This document shows positions 8,804 to 15,650 of a stretch of DNA of 34,299 nt, piece after piece. The position numbers and the translations under genes were made by a program. The DNA lies in the NCBI GenBank assembly GCA_903889655.1, contig CAISYL010000175.1:1-34299 (forward strand), given 5' to 3'. Each line of letters opens with the position of its first letter. The first letter of the stretch is position 1. The notes under the pieces were generated by a model. It made no database searches and was not told the DNA's origin. It worked only from the letters and a program-made list of their open reading frames with translations. The DNA is from an uncultured Alphaproteobacteria bacterium. Lineage in GTDB: Bacteria; Pseudomonadota; Alphaproteobacteria; Parvibaculales; Parvibaculaceae.

Positions 8804-9610
8804 CTAAAGCTTCAGGGTCGCGATCACGGGAACGTGGTCCGATGCCCGCTCCCACCCCCTCGCCTCGCGCAGGACCTGCATCGATTGCGGGGCGTCTCCC
8901 AGCGCCGGCGTCACCCAGATATGGTCGAGCCTGCGGCCGCGATCGGCGGCGGCCCAATCCTTTGCGCGGTAGCTCCACCAGGAATAGAGCTTTTCTTCGG
9001 CCGGCACGAAGCGGCGCATCACGTCGACCCAGTCGTGCGAGGCGATGACCTCGTTCATCAGGTCCACCTCGATCGGGGTGTGGCTGACGACCTTCAGCAA
9101 TTGTTTGTGCGACCAGACGTCGTGTTCGAGCGGCGCGACGTTGAGATCGCCGACCAGAGCCATGCGGTTCTGGGATTTCCGCTTCATGCCGTCATACCAT
9201 TGCGTCATCTCGCGCATGAAGGCGAGCTTGTGCGCGAATTTCTCGTTGATCTCCGGGTCGGGTTCGTCGCCGCCGGCGGGCACATAGAAGTTGTGAACCG
9301 TCAGGCCGCCGGGCACGTCGAGATCGACCGAAAGATGGCGTGCATCGCCCTTCTCGCAAAAGGCTTTCGTCTCGATCTTTTTGAAGGGAATGCGGCTCAG
9401 GATCGCGACGCCGTGATAGCCCTTCTGGCCGTTGACCGCGACATGTTCGTAACCCGCCTTCTGGATCGCCTTCAGCGGAAAGGCGTCGTTGACGCATTTG
9501 ATTTCCTGAAGGCAAAGCACATCCGGCGCGTGATCGGCCAGCACCTTCTCGACGAGATTGATCCTTAGGCGGACGGAATTGATGTTCCAGGTGGCGAGCT
9601 TGAAATCCAA
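8804..9610 (-). CDS. xth: Exodeoxyribonuclease III (AP endonuclease)
   Basis: A 268-residue Xth-family enzyme for base-excision repair. It cleaves at abasic sites and removes 3'-blocking groups in a Mg2+-dependent reaction. The motifs are in order: KLATWNINSVRLRI, catalytic metal ligand Glu-36 in LCLQEIKC, YHGVAILSR, GDLNVAP (~152-158), DHIWVT and the C-terminal SDHVPVIATL with the Asp-His pair. The length matches ExoIII. The reading frame needs a TTG start at 9610; no upstream in-frame ATG exists and the homology begins exactly there. Shine-Dalgarno is weak. Confidence 0.95.
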   Translation of the reverse strand: MDFKLATWNINSVRLRINLVEKVLADHAPDVLCLQEIKCVNDAFPLKAIQKAGYEHVAVNGQKGYHGVAILSRIPFKKIETKAFCEKGDARHLSVDLDVPGGLTVHNFYVPAGGDEPDPEINEKFAHKLAFMREMTQWYDGMKRKSQNRMALVGDLNVAPLEHDVWSHKQLLKVVSHTPIEVDLMNEVIASHDWVDVMRRFVPAEEKLYSWWSYRAKDWAAADRGRRLDHIWVTPALGDAPQSMQVLREARGWERASDHVPVIATLKL

Positions 9611-9640: not shown

Positions 9641-10282
9641 TCAGAAGATATTGAAGGTGAGGCCGGCGACGCCGATGGGCCAGCGGCCGCGGGCGAAGAG
9701 CGCGAATTTGCGGTGGAAGGGATGATCTTCCCCGGCGCCGGCAATGAGCGCAAGCGCGGCGTTGTGCGCGGCCTGCACGGCGGCGCCGGCGGCGGCGTCC
9801 ATCAGCGCCTCGTCGTCGATTTCGGCGAAGCTCGCGGCCTCGCGCGCGGCGGCGCCGAGGCGTCCGCCTAAAATCGCCGTCACATGCGTCAACGCGATCG
9901 CAAGGCCCTCTTCGGAAATGGCCTCGAGGGCGTCCGTCGCGAGTCCGGCCCGCAACTGTTCTTCCGCCTCCCACTGGGCGGTGTCGAAATCGGTGTTGGC
10001 GGCGGCGTCGGCCGCGTCCTCCCAGCTCGCGACGCGGGCGGGCTCCGCGTCGGGAAAGCCGAGCCCGTCGAGATAATCGCGGGCAAGTCCCTTCGCCTCG
10101 CGATCGAGAGGTTCGCCCACTGCTGCGAACCACGGCAGCAGCGCCGCTTCTTCCGCAAAGAGGCGCACACCGCGAAGCAGCGGAATTTCCTCTTCAAGCG
10201 CGTCGAGATCGTCGTCGCTCAGCGTGATATGCGGCTCGTCGTCATCGTCCTGCATGGGGTCCCAGCGCTCAAGCGCAGTCAT
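9641..10282 (-). CDS. Unrecognised acidic helical protein
   Basis: A 213-residue, acidic and Ala-rich protein with no motif I can assign. It starts with an Asp-rich segment (QDDDDEPHITLSDDDLDALE). Two helical regions with conserved Trp (RVASWEDAADAA, AQWEAEEQLR) and a hydrophobic Gly/Ala-rich stretch near residues 135-190 follow, and it ends in GVAGLTFNIF. Codon usage matches the neighbourhood, so I take it as a real gene. A start at 10255 (MQDDDD) is an alternative to 10282; neither has a strong Shine-Dalgarno. The hairpin array upstream (10316-10451) would lie in its 5' leader if transcription came from further up. Confidence 0.6.
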   Translation of the reverse strand: MTALERWDPMQDDDDEPHITLSDDDLDALEEEIPLLRGVRLFAEEAALLPWFAAVGEPLDREAKGLARDYLDGLGFPDAEPARVASWEDAADAAANTDFDTAQWEAEEQLRAGLATDALEAISEEGLAIALTHVTAILGGRLGAAAREAASFAEIDDEALMDAAAGAAVQAAHNAALALIAGAGEDHPFHRKFALFARGRWPIGVAGLTFNIF

Positions 10283-10315
10283 GGGTGATCGATCGTTCTT
10301 ATATAGCAGCCGCAG

Positions 10316-10357
10316 AAAAAGTTACGCCCCGACACTCGCAGTTTGAACGGGGCGTAA
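10316..10357 (-). terminator. Distal intrinsic terminator of the 10.4 kb hairpin array
   Basis: On the minus strand TTACGCCCCG (10357-10348) pairs over 10 bp with CGGGGCGTAA (10331-10322), across a 16-nt loop. The 3' arm is followed by C and five T. It is the second of two terminators in tandem and sits 34-75 bp upstream of the gene starting at 10282, so an attenuator role is also possible. Confidence 0.6.
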
Positions 10358-10365
10358 AAAATGAC

Positions 10366-10403
10366 GCCCCGGTTTTCACGAATTGCCCCGGTTTTCACGA
10401 ATT
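10366..10403. repeat. Perfect 19-bp tandem duplication
   Basis: GCCCCGGTTTTCACGAATT occurs twice, head to tail, at 10366-10384 and 10385-10403. Both copies lie inside an 8-bp inverted repeat (ACGCCCCG 10364-10371 with CGGGGCGT 10407-10414) related to the two flanking terminator hairpins. It looks like a recent slippage duplication in the loop of a hairpin. Confidence 0.9.
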
Positions 10404-10414
10404 GAACGGGGCGT

Positions 10415-10451
10415 AAAAAAAGTTACGCCCCGTCAGGGGGGTGACGGGGCG
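10415..10451 (-). terminator. Strong intrinsic terminator on minus strand
   Basis: A perfect 10-bp stem, CGCCCCGTCA (minus, 10451-10442) with TGACGGGGCG (10435-10426), has a six-C loop. It is followed by TAAC and seven T on the minus strand. It could terminate the spuC-type gene (stop at 10753), but the ~300-nt separation and the folded sequence between them suggest it ends a small RNA. Confidence 0.8.
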
Positions 10452-10640
10452 CAACCGCGCTTCTTCTGCGCTTGCGCCGGGAGGGGAATTCCGGCGCGTC
10501 GGGGACGGAGCACCAACCAGACGAGCGGGGGGCAGGTCGCCTGGAGGGCTTAACGCTCCGCCCTCATGCAAAGGTAGATAGGTCCAGTCCGGGGCGAGTT
10601 CAATGGCGGGACCGATGATCTTTTGATGAATTCCAATTTA
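10415..10640 (-). ncRNA. Candidate structured small RNA
   Basis: Read on the minus strand, the block contains nested stems. Nine pairs join 10555-10563 to 10503-10511 (one G-U). Inside them, eight pairs join 10537-10544 to 10517-10524 (one G-U) around a 12-nt loop. A 7-bp hairpin (10474-10480 with 10491-10497) has CCCCTC in its loop. It is followed by a GCGCAA/TTGCGC hairpin (10449-10454, 10472-10477) and the strong terminator at 10415-10451. A competing stem (10544-10549 with 10560-10565) would exclude the first fold. A -10-like TAAATT lies near 10645. No long coding frame fits. Family not recognised; a 6S-like RNA is one weak option. Confidence 0.42.
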
Positions 10641-10752: not shown

Positions 10753-12135
10753 TTAGAGGACGCCGAGATCCTTCGCGATGAGGTCGATGCAACGCCGGGC
10801 GAGGCCGAACATCTCGTCGAGTTCGCTTTCGGAAATGACCAGCGGCGGGCTCAGAACCATGGTGTCGCCGATGGCGCGCATGACGAGGCCATTGTCGAAA
10901 CAATGGACACGGCAGCGATAACCGACTTCGAGTTCGCCGGGGAATTTCTCACGCGTCTTCTTGTTCTTGACGAGTTCGATCGCGCCGAGAAGGCCGACGC
11001 CGCGCGTCTCGCCGACCAGCGGATGGTCGGCGAGCTCGGCGAGCTTCTTCTGGAAATAGGCGCCCGTTGCGCCGCCGACCTTCTCGACGAGGCGCTCCTT
11101 CTGCATCACTTCGAGATTGGCGAGCGCCACCGCGCAGGCGACGGGGTGGCCGGAATAGGTGAAGCCGTGCGACCACTCCTCGTCGGAGTTGAAGACCGCA
11201 TCGCCGACACGGGTGCCGAGGCCCACCGCCGCGATCGGCTGGTAGCCGGAGGAGAGGCCCTTGGCCATGTTGATCATGTCGGGCTCGATGCCATAGGTCT
11301 GAGAGCCGAACCAGTTGCCCGTGCGGCCGAAGCCGCAGATCACTTCGTCGACATGCAGCAGTATGTCGTATTTCTTGCAGATGCGGTTGATCTCGCCCCA
11401 ATAGGTCGCGGGCGGAACGATCAGGCCGCCGGCGCCCTGCACGGGCTCGGCAACGAAGGCTGCGACATTTTCGGCACCGAGTTCGAGGATCTTTTCTTCC
11501 AGCGCGCGGGCGGTCTTCAATCCGAATTCGTCCGGGCTCATCTCGCCGCCCTCGCCGTACCAGTAGGGGCAATCGATATGAACGAAGCCCGGCAGCGGCA
11601 GATCGGCTTGCGGGTGCATCGATGTGAGGCCCGACAGCGAGGCCGCGCCCAGCGTCACGCCGTGATAGGCCTTCTTGCGGGCGATGAAGATTTTCTTGGT
11701 CGGTCTTTTCTGCAGGTTCCAGAAATAGCGGATGATCTTGATCGCGCTGTCGTTGCCTTCGGAGCCCGAATTGGCGAAGAAGAAACGATCGATGCCCCTG
11801 GGCGTCACTTCCGAAAGCTTCTGCGACAGTTCGGCCGTGTAGGGGTTCGTCGTCTGGAAGAAGCTGTTGTAATAGGGCAGTTCCTTCAGCGCCTTGTAGC
11901 CCGCTTCGGCCAGTTCCTCGCGGCCATAGCCGACCTGTACGCACCAGAGCCCGGCCATGCCGTCGATCAGCTTGTGGCCTTCCGAGTCGTAGAGGTAGAC
12001 GCCCTTGGCGTGGGTGATGACGCGCGCGCCGGTCTTGGCCAGTTCGTGATGCGTCGTGAAGGGATGGAGATGATGCGCGGCATCCATCTCCTGCCAGCGT
12101 TTCGTCTGGTTCGATCTGGCAATGGTTTCCGACAT
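10753..12135 (-). CDS. Class III omega-aminotransferase, putrescine-pyruvate type (SpuC-like)
   Basis: A 460-residue PLP fold-type I class III aminotransferase. It shows GMAGLWCVQVGYGREELA, FFFANSGSEGNDSAIK, YHGVTLGAASLSG, the PLP-pairing Asp-263 in HVDEVICGFGRTG and the Schiff-base Lys-292 in MINMAKGLSSGYQPI. The sequence closely resembles my memory of SpuC, which moves the amino group of putrescine or related diamines to pyruvate. Beta-alanine or other omega-amines remain possible. The start is ATG 12135, with GGAG about 6 nt upstream; the upstream open frame is not homologous. It is the third gene after hydrolase and synthetase genes, in the spuA-spuB-spuC order. Confidence 0.88.
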   Translation of the reverse strand: MSETIARSNQTKRWQEMDAAHHLHPFTTHHELAKTGARVITHAKGVYLYDSEGHKLIDGMAGLWCVQVGYGREELAEAGYKALKELPYYNSFFQTTNPYTAELSQKLSEVTPRGIDRFFFANSGSEGNDSAIKIIRYFWNLQKRPTKKIFIARKKAYHGVTLGAASLSGLTSMHPQADLPLPGFVHIDCPYWYGEGGEMSPDEFGLKTARALEEKILELGAENVAAFVAEPVQGAGGLIVPPATYWGEINRICKKYDILLHVDEVICGFGRTGNWFGSQTYGIEPDMINMAKGLSSGYQPIAAVGLGTRVGDAVFNSDEEWSHGFTYSGHPVACAVALANLEVMQKERLVEKVGGATGAYFQKKLAELADHPLVGETRGVGLLGAIELVKNKKTREKFPGELEVGYRCRVHCFDNGLVMRAIGDTMVLSPPLVISESELDEMFGLARRCIDLIAKDLGVL

Positions 12136-12486
12136 GGGAGTGCTCCGTGTTTCCGGGAATGTTGAGAGTGCGGAAAACGCGCGGGTTTTGTGACGCCCGC
12201 GCCGGAGCGCTCTTACGGATTGTAGCCGATGCGCGCGCAGAGGATCAGAAGCTCGTGCTTCTGTCGGCGGCTCGTATGAAAACCCGTTTCGGACATGAGG
12301 GCATTCTACAGGAGGACGCGGGGGATGCGAGTCTCGCCCCCTCCGTCGCCGTCTTGGCCGGGCTTGGCCCCGGCCATCCACGTCTTTCTTCCGGTTGCTG
12401 TCCAAGGAAGGTGCGGATGCGCGGGTCCAGCCCGCGCATGACGAGGTTCAGGTGTGAGGTTCAGGTGTGGGGCCGAGGACTTCCCT
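12136..12486. other. 350-bp gap between spuB- and spuC-like genes
   Basis: No coding sequence is supported here. The half next to spuC (12136-12349) presumably holds its own leader or promoter, though I could not pick a clear -35/-10. The other half holds the palindromic repeat at 12350-12443 and a 13-bp tandem duplication, GAGGTTCAGGTGT, at 12443-12468. Confidence 0.6.
12350..12443. repeat. Bipartite REP-like palindromic repeat
   Basis: The element has CGTC at one end and GACG at the other. The left part is a GC-rich hairpin, GGCCGGG-CTTG-CCCCGGCC-like (about 12356-12376). The right part is a perfect 9-bp hairpin, ATGCGCGGG (12417-12425) and CCCGCGCAT (12431-12439), with loop TCCAG. It resembles the dispersed intergenic repeats of alphaproteobacteria. 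A shorter relative is at 29071-29101. Confidence 0.6.
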
Positions 12487-13860
12487 TCACACGTTCAGAA
12501 GCAGATGCTCGCGCTCCCAGGCCGAGATCACCTGCTGATAGGCTTCGTGCTCGGTGTATTTGACGTCGAGATAGACCAGCACGAAATCGGTGCCGAGGAT
12601 TTCCTTCAGGTCCGACGACGAGCGCAGATTGTCGAGCGCGTCGAGGAGGTGGCGCGGCAGGCCGTAGCGTTTCGACTCGTAGGCGTTGCCCTTCATCTCC
12701 TTGGTCGGCACGAGTTCTTCCGTCATGCCGATATAGCCGCAGGCGAGCGAGGCCGCGATGGCGAGATAGGGATTGGCGTCGGCGCCCGGCACTCGGTTCT
12801 CGACGCGGCGCGCGGTGCGCTTGGCCTCGGGAATGCGCAAGCCCACCGTGCGGTTTTCATGGCCCCAATGCGTGTTGATGGGGGCGGCGAGATCGCGGAC
12901 GATGCGGCGGTAGGAATTGACGTTGGGCGCGATCAGCGGCATCGCCGCCGGCAGATATTTCTGCAAGCCGGCGATATAGGAGAGGAAGAGTTTCGAGTCG
13001 CGGCCCTGCTTGGTCGAGAAAAGATTCTCGCCCGAATCCACGTCGACCAGCGACTGGTGGATATGCATCGCGCTGCCGGGCTCGCCTTCATAGGGCTTGG
13101 CCATGAAGGTCGCATAGACGCCGTGCTTCATCGCGGCCTGGCGCATGGTGCGCTTGAACAGGAACGTCTGGTCGGCGATTTCGAGCGGGTCGCCGTGGTC
13201 GAAATTGATCTCGACCTGGGCGGCGCCGGATTCGTGGATCAGCGTGTCGATGTCGAGATCCTGCGCCTCGCAGAAATCATACATGTCCTCGAAGATCGGA
13301 TCGAATTCGTTGACCGCGTCGATGCCGTAGGACTGCCGCGCCGTTTCCTTGCGGCCGTTGGTGCCGACCGGCGGCTCCAGCGGATAGTCGGGGTCGATGT
13401 TTTTCGCGGCGAGGAAGAATTCGACTTCCGGCGCGACGACCGGCTGCCAGCCCTTGGCCTCGTAAAGCGCCAGCACCTTCTTCAGCACGTTGCGCGGCGC
13501 GATCGGCACATGGCCGCCGTCGCGGTAATTGGCGTCGCAGATGATCTGCGCCGTCGGCTCGTCGTACCAGGGCACGATGCGCACGGTCGCGGGATCGGGA
13601 TCGAGAATGATGTCCGGCTCGGTGTCGGAGAGAACGTCGCTGTCGATGAAGTCGCCCGTCACCGTCTGGCCGAAGATCGATTCCGGCAGGCGGAGTGTCC
13701 GCTCGGTCAGGCCCGAAATGAATTTCTTCGTCGGCAGGATCTTGCCGCGGGCGATGCCGGCCATGTCCGACACCATCACTTCGACTTCGGTGATGCGGCG
13801 GTCCTTCAGCCACTTCACCAGTTCGTCCTTGTTCTTCACCGTCTCATTGCCCGTCGCCAT
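12487..13860 (-). CDS. Glutamine-synthetase-family gamma-glutamylpolyamine synthetase (SpuB/PuuA-like)
   Basis: A 457-residue GS-fold ligase that would join glutamate to a polyamine such as putrescine with ATP. Visible elements are the beta-grasp N-terminus (VEVMVSDMAGIARGKILP), the metal-binding VAPEVEFFL, ESGAAQVEINFDHGDPL, the ATP/His segment GSAMHIHQSLVD and the substrate loop NSYRRIVRDLAAPINTHWGHENR. The length matches the PuuA/SpuB/GlnT class. It ends in a helix with AWEREHLLLNV. AGGAAAGAG lies ahead of the ATG. The hydrolase gene is 29 bp upstream on the same strand, which supports polyamine use over ammonia assimilation. Confidence 0.88.
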   Translation of the reverse strand: MATGNETVKNKDELVKWLKDRRITEVEVMVSDMAGIARGKILPTKKFISGLTERTLRLPESIFGQTVTGDFIDSDVLSDTEPDIILDPDPATVRIVPWYDEPTAQIICDANYRDGGHVPIAPRNVLKKVLALYEAKGWQPVVAPEVEFFLAAKNIDPDYPLEPPVGTNGRKETARQSYGIDAVNEFDPIFEDMYDFCEAQDLDIDTLIHESGAAQVEINFDHGDPLEIADQTFLFKRTMRQAAMKHGVYATFMAKPYEGEPGSAMHIHQSLVDVDSGENLFSTKQGRDSKLFLSYIAGLQKYLPAAMPLIAPNVNSYRRIVRDLAAPINTHWGHENRTVGLRIPEAKRTARRVENRVPGADANPYLAIAASLACGYIGMTEELVPTKEMKGNAYESKRYGLPRHLLDALDNLRSSSDLKEILGTDFVLVYLDVKYTEHEAYQQVISAWEREHLLLNV

Positions 13861-13889
13861 GGGGCACCGTTCTCTTTCCTGCTTGGACC

Positions 13890-14723
13890 TCAGGTCCGTT
13901 GAGTTTCAAGCGCATGTCGCGCTTTCTGCCGCGCTGCCTTGCGCACCGCATCGCCGAAGGCTCCGAGGAGCTTCTGCGAAACCGGGTTCTCCCAGTATTT
14001 CCATTCGGGGTGCCACTGCACACCCAGCGCGAAGCCCGAGGCGTCGCGCACGCTTGCCGCCTCGACCGTGCCGTCGGGCGCGCGGCCCTCGGCGACGAGG
14101 CGGTCCGCGAGCCGCGCCACGCCCTGTCCGTGAAGCGAGTTCACGCGGATCGTCCGGGTGCCGAGAATTGTCTCGAAAGCGCCGCCCTCGACAAGATCGA
14201 CCTCATGGGCCGGACCATATTGCGTGTCGAGCGGATCGTCCTTCGACTCGCGGTGGTCGAAGCGGGGCGCGAAGCCCGGCTCGCCCGGCATCTCGTGGAT
14301 ATGCTGATGCAGCGTGCCGCCGAAGGCGACGTTCAGTTCCTGAAAGCCGCGGCAGACGCAGAAGAGCGGCGCGCCGCGCTCGACGCTTGCCCGGATCAGG
14401 CCGAGCGTCAGCGCATCGCGCTGTTCGTCGAGCAGCACGCCCTCGCGCGGCGCCGTGCCGCCATAATTCTTCGGGTGAACATTGGAATGCGAACCGGTCA
14501 GGAAGATGCCATCGCAAAGCGCAAAAATCTCGTCGAGTTCCGCGTCGAGATCGAAGTGGCCTTCGTTCAGGCGCGGGACCGGCAGCAGGATGGGTTTCGT
14601 GCCGGCTCCGCCTTCGACCGCGGCGATGTATTTCTCGCCCACGGCGTGAAAGGGATGGACCCCCAGCAACTTCACGTCGCAGGGGATGCCGACGACCGGC
14701 CGTCTCGGAAGGTTTCGGGTCAT
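13890..14723 (-). CDS. Gamma-glutamyl-GABA hydrolase (PuuD/SpuA-like)
   Basis: A 277-residue class I glutamine-amidotransferase-like hydrolase of the peptidase C26 family. It starts with RRPVVGIPCDVK. The oxyanion region is FLTGSHSNVHP. The nucleophile is Cys-124 in FCVCRGFQELNVAFGG, and His-238 and Glu-240 in GVQWHPEW complete the triad. It frees GABA, or another amino acid, from its gamma-glutamyl adduct in the polyamine pathway. The first in-frame ATG is at 14723, preceded by GGGGG; a TTG at 14762 is less likely. TTGACC at 14762-14757 could be a -35 box for this first gene of the cluster. Confidence 0.9.
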   Translation of the reverse strand: MTRNLPRRPVVGIPCDVKLLGVHPFHAVGEKYIAAVEGGAGTKPILLPVPRLNEGHFDLDAELDEIFALCDGIFLTGSHSNVHPKNYGGTAPREGVLLDEQRDALTLGLIRASVERGAPLFCVCRGFQELNVAFGGTLHQHIHEMPGEPGFAPRFDHRESKDDPLDTQYGPAHEVDLVEGGAFETILGTRTIRVNSLHGQGVARLADRLVAEGRAPDGTVEAASVRDASGFALGVQWHPEWKYWENPVSQKLLGAFGDAVRKAARQKARHALETQRT

Positions 14724-14798
14724 GCCCCCAAGAGCTACCACGGCGCATAGGGGGATGGTCAAGGCAGCGCAACCGACCCGTGGAATAAATCGGGAAAA

Positions 14799-15509
14799 TC
14801 AGGGCTTTCCGACGCCGGGTCGCTGCTCGTCCTGAAGCACGAAGAGCGCATTGTCGGCCTTGACGCCGGAGCGCGTGTTGCGGAGCGCCACCGTCGTCTG
14901 TAGCCCCTGCGCATCCGTCACCACCCATTGGCGGAGCTGGAGGCTCGGCTGGTCGAAAACGAGGGTGAGGTCTCCCGGTGCGTTGCCGCTCTTGTCCTGA
15001 AGAACCAGCCGAAGCACGCCCGGCTGGCGCTGTACGCCGAGAATGCGGGTGTCTTCCACAAGGTCGATATGGGAGGCGAGGATGATGCCGAGCGGCGTCG
15101 AACTGATCGGGTAGCGCTGGGCGGCCGAAAATCCGTCCTTCACCGCGACCCAGGTGCCGTCCGCGACGACCAGCGTCTTTTGCGGCGGGGTATATTCAAA
15201 ACGCAGCCGGCCGGGTCGGCGCAGATAGAACTTGCCTTCGGCCAGCGACCCGTCGGGACCGACCTGCAGGAAATTTCCCTGAAGGTCCGAAAGCCCGTTG
15301 AGATAGGCATCCACTTTCCCGATGTCGGCCTCGTCCTCCGCCGTCAGCGGATGGGCCTTCAATGCCGGCCGCGTTTCGGCATGGGCCACCGTCACGTCGG
15401 CCGTCGCGATGGCAAGCGCCAGCACGCCGAGGCCGATCAGAGCCGCGGTGACGAGCATTGCCTGACGAATGCGTCGGCTTTGATCGAGGTTTCTCATGAG
15501 GAAAAGCAT
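14799..15509 (-). CDS. LolA-like periplasmic lipoprotein carrier
   Basis: A ~236-residue exported protein. A hydrophobic signal segment at ~19-42 ends in TVAHA-ETRP. The mature part matches the LolA fold: LNGLSDLQGNFLQVGPDGSL, AEGKFYLRRPGRLRFEYTPP, LVVADGTWVAV and the C-terminal beta-strands (TLVFDQPSLQLRQWVVTDAQG). It should shuttle lipoproteins from the inner to the outer membrane. The ATG at 15509 has AAAAGG about 7 nt upstream; 15497 is an alternative. It follows ftsK on the same strand with a 141-bp gap, an arrangement common in proteobacteria (ftsK-lolA). Confidence 0.88.
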   Translation of the reverse strand: MLFLMRNLDQSRRIRQAMLVTAALIGLGVLALAIATADVTVAHAETRPALKAHPLTAEDEADIGKVDAYLNGLSDLQGNFLQVGPDGSLAEGKFYLRRPGRLRFEYTPPQKTLVVADGTWVAVKDGFSAAQRYPISSTPLGIILASHIDLVEDTRILGVQRQPGVLRLVLQDKSGNAPGDLTLVFDQPSLQLRQWVVTDAQGLQTTVALRNTRSGVKADNALFVLQDEQRPGVGKP

Positions 15510-15650
15510 GTTGGCCTTTTGTGGCGAAAAGAAGAAAGACGAAGGGCGGCGCGGCGGCCATTTGCCGGAGAAAGGCGGGCAGTTCAATTTGAGTCTCAGC
15601 TGTGGCAACAAAGCCGCAGCTTTCGACGCTGCGCTTGCTGCGCCCAAATA

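Follow-up and report, generated by a model that had tools for sequence, protein, structure and literature searches.

On the minus strand of the window (the whole 34,299-nt stretch analysed here, from an uncultured alphaproteobacterium of the family Parvibaculaceae), the interval between spuC and a 213-aa gene of unassigned family can form several GC-rich hairpins. An earlier note proposed that positions 10415-10640 hold an undescribed structured RNA with two mutually exclusive folds, possibly related to 6S RNA. We therefore asked what this interval encodes, i.e., a separate RNA gene, a leader of the genes downstream, or merely the end of the spuC transcript, and to which known RNA, if any, it is related.

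The minus strand of the spuC-213-aa interval folds into four stem-loops

The element and its neighbors are arranged as follows.

14799-15647, minus strand: lolA homolog, which by tblastn immediately precedes the RNA in other families
13890-14762, minus strand: puuD-like polyamine gene
12487-13860, minus strand: puuA/GS-like polyamine gene
10753-about 12126, minus strand: spuC, polyamine gene
10575-10603, minus strand: promoter (TTGAAC 10603-10598, 17-nt spacer, TATCTA 10580-10575), start site predicted
10567-10415, minus strand: RusT-like sRNA of ~153 nt, predicted 5' end A10567, 3' end within the U-run
10503-10563, minus strand: stem-loop 1 as a whole
10563-10555/10511-10503, minus strand: stem-loop 1, helix P1, 9 bp (GGGCGGAGC with GCUCCGUCC)
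10549-10547/10514-10512, minus strand: stem-loop 1, helix P2
10544-10537/10524-10517, minus strand: stem-loop 1, helix P3, 8 bp (CCAGGCGA with UCGUCUGG)
10536-10525, minus strand: stem-loop 1, apical loop CCUGCCCCCCGC
10474-10497, minus strand: stem-loop 2, GCGCCGG/CCGGCGC, closing on AAUUCCCCUC, a loop presumed to be the seed and to correspond to the RusT seed loop
10457-10471, minus strand: stem-loop 3, GCGC-AGAAGAA-GCGC, at the position of the Hfq-binding stem-loop 3 of RusT
10415-10456, minus strand: stem-loop 4, intrinsic terminator (15 pairs over 10456-10421, C6 loop, U7 tail to 10415)
9641-10282, minus strand: 213-aa gene, family unassigned, no Pfam/NCBIfam match, adjoining the RNA across families
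8804-9610, minus strand: xth, exodeoxyribonuclease III (TIGR00633), locus marker and also a neighbor in distant genomes

Read from 10567 to 10415 on the minus strand, the predicted RNA is AUGAGGGCGGAGCG...GGGGCGUAACUUUUUUU. The fold of 10400-10640 has an energy of -101.6 kcal/mol, compared with -76.9 +/- 4.5 kcal/mol for shuffled sequences (z = -5.45; 0 of 200 shuffles as good). The 9-bp and 8-bp stems that the earlier note had drawn are both present, as are the two further hairpins (10497-10474 and 10471-10457) and the strong terminator that follows them. The interval given there does enclose the RNA, but its upper end precedes the probable 5' end by ~70 nt, and 10603-10575 is promoter. The loop of stem-loop 2, which includes CCCCUC at 10486-10481, is unpaired with a probability of 0.8-1.0. 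Beyond the terminator (10311-10435) lie more terminator-like inverted repeats and T-runs, some of them exact tandem copies, whose number differs between Parvibaculum species.

The proposed switch did not hold. The competing stem, 10565-10560 with 10549-10544, can be drawn, but it is ~9.5 kcal/mol worse than the main fold and is not conserved: across 26 sequences, 59.6% of cells form a standard pair, and covariation is no higher than in shuffles. This stem is a coincidence of GC-rich sequence.

Covariation supports the fold

We evaluated the fold with a covariance model (R2) that was trained on 21 sequences from outside Parvibaculum and given an explicit structure. When 24 sequences from the window, Parvibaculum, and the sister genus were aligned to R2, double-sided changes were found in 30 of the 44 pairs; the covariation score was 0.379, with slid controls reaching no more than 0.132. 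In a 94-sequence alignment, which was fitted to the structure and has one row that is a spurious match (L139 2615-2804), 40 of the 44 pairs had changes on both sides, 92% of cells paired, and the covariation score rose to 0.587 (slid controls, at most 0.095). Compensatory changes occur in both of the stems named in the earlier note, and in alignment A6 every pair of P1, P2, and P3 in stem-loop 1 shows double-sided changes. Stem-loop 3 is paired in 98.6% of cells, and the terminator (helix 8) has double changes at 13 of 13 pairs. Single-sequence folds, which are independent of the alignment, yield the same four stem-loops, and conservation is far higher in the loops than in the stems. The covariation support for the fold is overwhelming, with slid and shuffled controls far off.

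A conserved promoter and terminator mark the RNA as a separate gene

All 26 full-length copies from Parvibaculum and the sister genus carry TTGAA, a 16-17-nt spacer, and a TATCTA-like -10 box, the latter ~7 nt ahead of the conserved 5' end. Among distant copies, TTG[AC][AC]A occurs no more than 45 nt upstream in 64 of 81, compared with 6% of shuffles. Since the element has its own promoter and its own terminator, and since the promoter is conserved, we conclude that it is a separate gene. Transcription, and its start at A10567, are predicted from these signals and from RusT (see below). Together, homologs, covariation, promoter, and terminator strongly support the structured minus-strand RNA that had been proposed. 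A leaderless peptide (AUGAGGGC at the predicted start) was also considered and rejected, as its frame and AUG are not retained in relatives.

These results bear on whether the interval is simply the 3' untranslated region of spuC, followed by an array of terminators with chance structure. The RNA does lie downstream of spuC on the same strand, and further terminator-like repeats do come after it; however, this explanation is refuted by the conserved promoter of the RNA itself, by the covariation, and by two genomes (L026 and L028) in which spuC is not adjacent and the RNA is retained. We consider it virtually untenable.

The RNA is found in many alphaproteobacterial families

Apart from the window's own genome, which is itself Parvibaculum, blastn recovered the element from 25 of 26 genomes of the genus, and also from 2 genomes of the sister genus. 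A covariance model built from 26 sequences (R1) matched 37 of the 40 genomes of the order, with a single strong copy in each, and also found full-length copies in several other families. A pattern scan across named genomes, which selected copies by their loops, returned 111 stretches; among the 80 listed titles, nearly all were labeled as Alphaproteobacteria or as orders, families, or genera within them (including Parvibaculum, Parvularculaceae, Marinicaulis, Rhizomicrobium, and Rhodospirillales and Hyphomicrobiales bins), the remaining labels being broader. A model match was present at all of these loci but one.

Because the pattern-scan copies were picked by their loops, they are unusable for measuring loop conservation. 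We therefore turned to 36 loci found by the model only, one of which was read at wrong coordinates and scored negative. A C6 run was present in the first part of 27 of these (9% of shuffles), and a CCCCU-type element lay further 3' in 33 (11% of shuffles). The C-run is retained in nearly all homologs with an enlarged stem-loop 1, and CCCCUCCC, or a one-letter variant of it, forms the loop of stem-loop 2 in most homologs, including those of Caulobacteraceae type.

For a further model, R3, the best score in genomes of other classes was 34 bits, which is the noise level, so that R3 matches below ~42 bits were not trusted; matches of at least 42 bits, taken as credible, were found in 40 of 385 genomes of the class (hand count). 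A plasmid search gave no match. As judged from these sequence matches, the RNA is common to Parvibaculum and many alphaproteobacterial families.

The RNA lies between lolA and xth

In Parvibaculum, spuC, the RNA, and the 213-aa gene are all encoded on one strand, and the puuD-, puuA-, and spuC-like genes (10753-14762) separate the RNA from lolA. Other families have lolA, or puuD beside lolA, immediately upstream of the RNA; downstream comes xth, frequently preceded by the 213-aa gene. The same arrangement recurs among weak blind model matches in further families (L225-L236), of which 11 of 12 adjoin lolA and/or xth; we therefore regard those matches as real. Gene order across these many families indicates that the ancestral order is lolA-[RNA]-(213-aa gene)-xth. 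With regard to the neighbors themselves, other lineages (L109, L141, L148, and L164) have only puuD separating lolA from the RNA, and the 213-aa protein is encoded between the RNA and xth in several alphaproteobacterial families.

Could the RNA instead regulate the 213-aa gene (or xth) in cis, as a leader or attenuator that may be an alternatively folding riboswitch? In most genomes it is upstream of the 213-aa gene on the same strand with an intrinsic terminator in between, as such a leader would be, and a competing stem can be drawn. However, the RNA is also retained in front of genes other than the 213-aa gene and xth (L103, L109, L141, and L164), and its distance to the next gene varies widely. 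Furthermore, conservation peaks in the loops with no aptamer-like core, and the alternative stem is both energetically costly and unconserved, as described above. We thus find a cis-acting role highly improbable and continue to treat the RNA as a gene of its own.

Comparison with Rfam and with 6S RNA

The Rfam search of the window found nothing at gathering scores, and at relaxed thresholds the window and its homologs gave sub-threshold matches only, driven by the terminator. The 6C RNA (RF01066) resembles the element in having hairpin loops with runs of C; it was rejected because all copies tested scored 26.5-35.9 bits against a cut-off of 47, with matches confined to the 3' hairpins. The main texts of the Breaker-lab structured-RNA papers contained no matching motif. 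Without a covering Rfam family, the RNA is likely unannotated at present. The description of the RNA as new therefore stands for Rfam and for Parvibaculum, but not with respect to Caulobacter, where RusT has the same lolA-xth locus and four-hairpin anatomy.

The suggested relation to 6S RNA, according to which the element would bind RNA polymerase, drew on its long hairpin with internal loops. This idea is refuted by the genuine 6S RNA of the genome, which lies on another contig (L001, G000:C277:20456-20612; RF00013, 66.7 bits, cut-off 46.4), while the element has no RF00013 match; we give it practically no weight.

The element is very probably a distant homolog of RusT

Caulobacter crescentus encodes RusT (CCNA_R0199), an sRNA of 118 nt that binds Hfq, in the interval between lolA (CCNA_03820) and xth (CCNA_03821) (PMC11005374, mBio 2024). 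RusT was reported as an sRNA of Caulobacteraceae and has four stem-loops; the second loop holds the seed (nt 45-57, including C53), and the Hfq site is at stem-loop 3 (PMC11005374). Iron limitation induces RusT via NtrYX, its main targets are TonB-dependent receptors, and uptake channels are thereby shut down when iron is scarce (PMC11005374).

The element shares with RusT the lolA/xth interval, the strand of its neighbors, and four stem-loops ending in an intrinsic terminator. It also has a C-rich loop in stem-loop 2 (UUCCCCUCCC, the counterpart of which in a probable Caulobacteraceae genome is UAUCCCCUCCC), and TonB-receptor mRNAs, the known targets of RusT, are its predicted targets. The two differ in length (~153 nt here), in stem-loop 1, which here forms a long hairpin of three helices capped by a C6-C8 loop of its own, and in stem-loop 3, which here is GCGC-n-GCGC and is conserved in position only. 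In addition, Parvibaculum has polyamine genes and the 213-aa gene between the RNA and lolA or xth.

We used genomes close to Caulobacter as a bridge. A GapR fragment of genome G652 (family f63) is ~90% identical to Caulobacter GapR, and f63 was taken as Caulobacteraceae by this proxy; family f70 was rejected as Caulobacteraceae, its GapR being only ~65% identical. In three probable Caulobacteraceae genomes (G652, G649, and G684), the lolA-xth interval holds an RNA of the same anatomy with a UCCCCUCCC loop; the loop reads UAUCCCCUCCC or closely resembles it. In G652, the predicted RNA is 121 nt long and its CCCCU occupies nt 50-54, at the position of the RusT seed, so that nt 53 falls within the C-run. 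R3 matched the G649 lolA-xth copy blindly (E = 8.8e-7, 42.2 bits) and the G684 copy weakly (4.5e-4, 30.2 bits), and gave no match at the lolA-xth locus of G652. The sequences of stem-loops 1 and 3 are unlike the Caulobacteraceae type, and the enlarged stem-loop 1 with its second C-rich loop is a variant missing from Caulobacteraceae-type copies. Separately, the Caulobacter sRNA family CC2171 (RF01867) has matches in f63, f70, f39, f176, and f180, above the cut-off in f63 and f70.

The main alternative is an alphaproteobacterial sRNA family of separate descent, which would resemble RusT only in lying at lolA-xth and in acting in a C-rich, anti-Shine-Dalgarno manner. Stem-loops 1 and 3 do differ, and model scores for Caulobacteraceae-like copies are low. 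However, coincidence would have to account for the same locus, strand, and order of four hairpins, for a near-identical loop of stem-loop 2 (UAUCCCCUCCCGG), for graded intermediates at the same locus in other families, and for the blind model match in G649. We regard independent origin as unlikely. Homology with RusT is most likely on the basis of locus, anatomy, the shared loop, and the matches in other Caulobacteraceae-like genomes, RusT itself having been compared by description. Altogether, these results suggest that the element is very probably a distant RusT homolog, a stand-alone trans-acting sRNA that would act on TonB-receptor mRNAs.

Other Caulobacter and Agrobacterium sRNAs resemble the element in the use of C-rich loops. 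GsrN pairs such a loop with G-rich mRNA leaders, but in most species it neighbors general-stress genes, and, transcribed from a sigma-T promoter, it activates katG (PMC5869019). CcnA, reported to be wide in Alphaproteobacteria, directs a C-rich loop at GGGG of mRNA leaders, but it is 182 nt long and located at the replication origin (PMC8959179). Both were rejected as the identity of the element because their loci differ. PmaR of Agrobacterium likewise binds targets through an accessible C-rich loop, but it is a spoon-shaped single hairpin limited to Agrobacterium and one Rhizobium (PMC6234868).

G-runs are enriched at TonB-receptor starts

If the element is a RusT, G-runs that its C-rich loops could bind are expected in TonB-receptor mRNAs. 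For the genome of the window, GGGG occurs no more than 22 nt before the chosen start in 14 of 16 TonB-receptor genes, but among short-chain dehydrogenase genes in 4 of 26 (p = 5e-6). This pattern was noticed first and counted afterwards; a second genome, G014, was then used as the test. In G014, GGGG precedes the start in 6 of 9 TonB-receptor genes, compared with 15.1% of 543 background genes (p = 8e-4); all sets shared one simple start-codon rule, and the calling of background genes was crude. Loop-mRNA duplex energies at predicted starts were weakly better than background for stem-loop 1 (p = 0.017-0.018) and not significantly so for stem-loop 2 (p = 0.07-0.15). As a further observation, the TonB-receptor genes of the window's genome and of G014 (L277-L293 and L324-L332) appear to use a G4-G6 run as ribosome-binding site rather than the usual GGAGG type.

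The enrichment supports the targeting model without proving it, as the G-runs could have another cause. It also makes plausible the earlier suggestion that the loops can pair with Shine-Dalgarno regions. Our model predicts an RNA of ~153 nt whose transcription starts at a sigma-70-type promoter of its own and stops at the terminator described above. The C-rich loops of stem-loops 1 and 2 (CUGCCCCCCGC and UUCCCCUCCC) would then base-pair with G-runs in mRNA ribosome-binding sites, chiefly in the mRNAs of TonB-dependent receptors. By analogy with RusT, Hfq would bind stem-loop 3 and the U-tail, and pairing would block translation, such that outer-membrane uptake is remodeled under iron shortage.

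DISCUSSION

Structure, locus, and covariance model extend RusT from Caulobacteraceae to many alphaproteobacterial families, with strong covariation for the fold. What is new is a variant with two C-rich loops and a testable target rule, namely G-runs at the starts of TonB-receptor genes. In a broader reading, to which we give even chances, RusT is one branch of an old, class-wide lolA-xth sRNA family whose members outside Caulobacteraceae have two C-rich seed loops and impose a G-run code on the ribosome-binding sites of TonB-receptor mRNAs. If this is true, one sRNA would set outer-membrane uptake across many Alphaproteobacteria.
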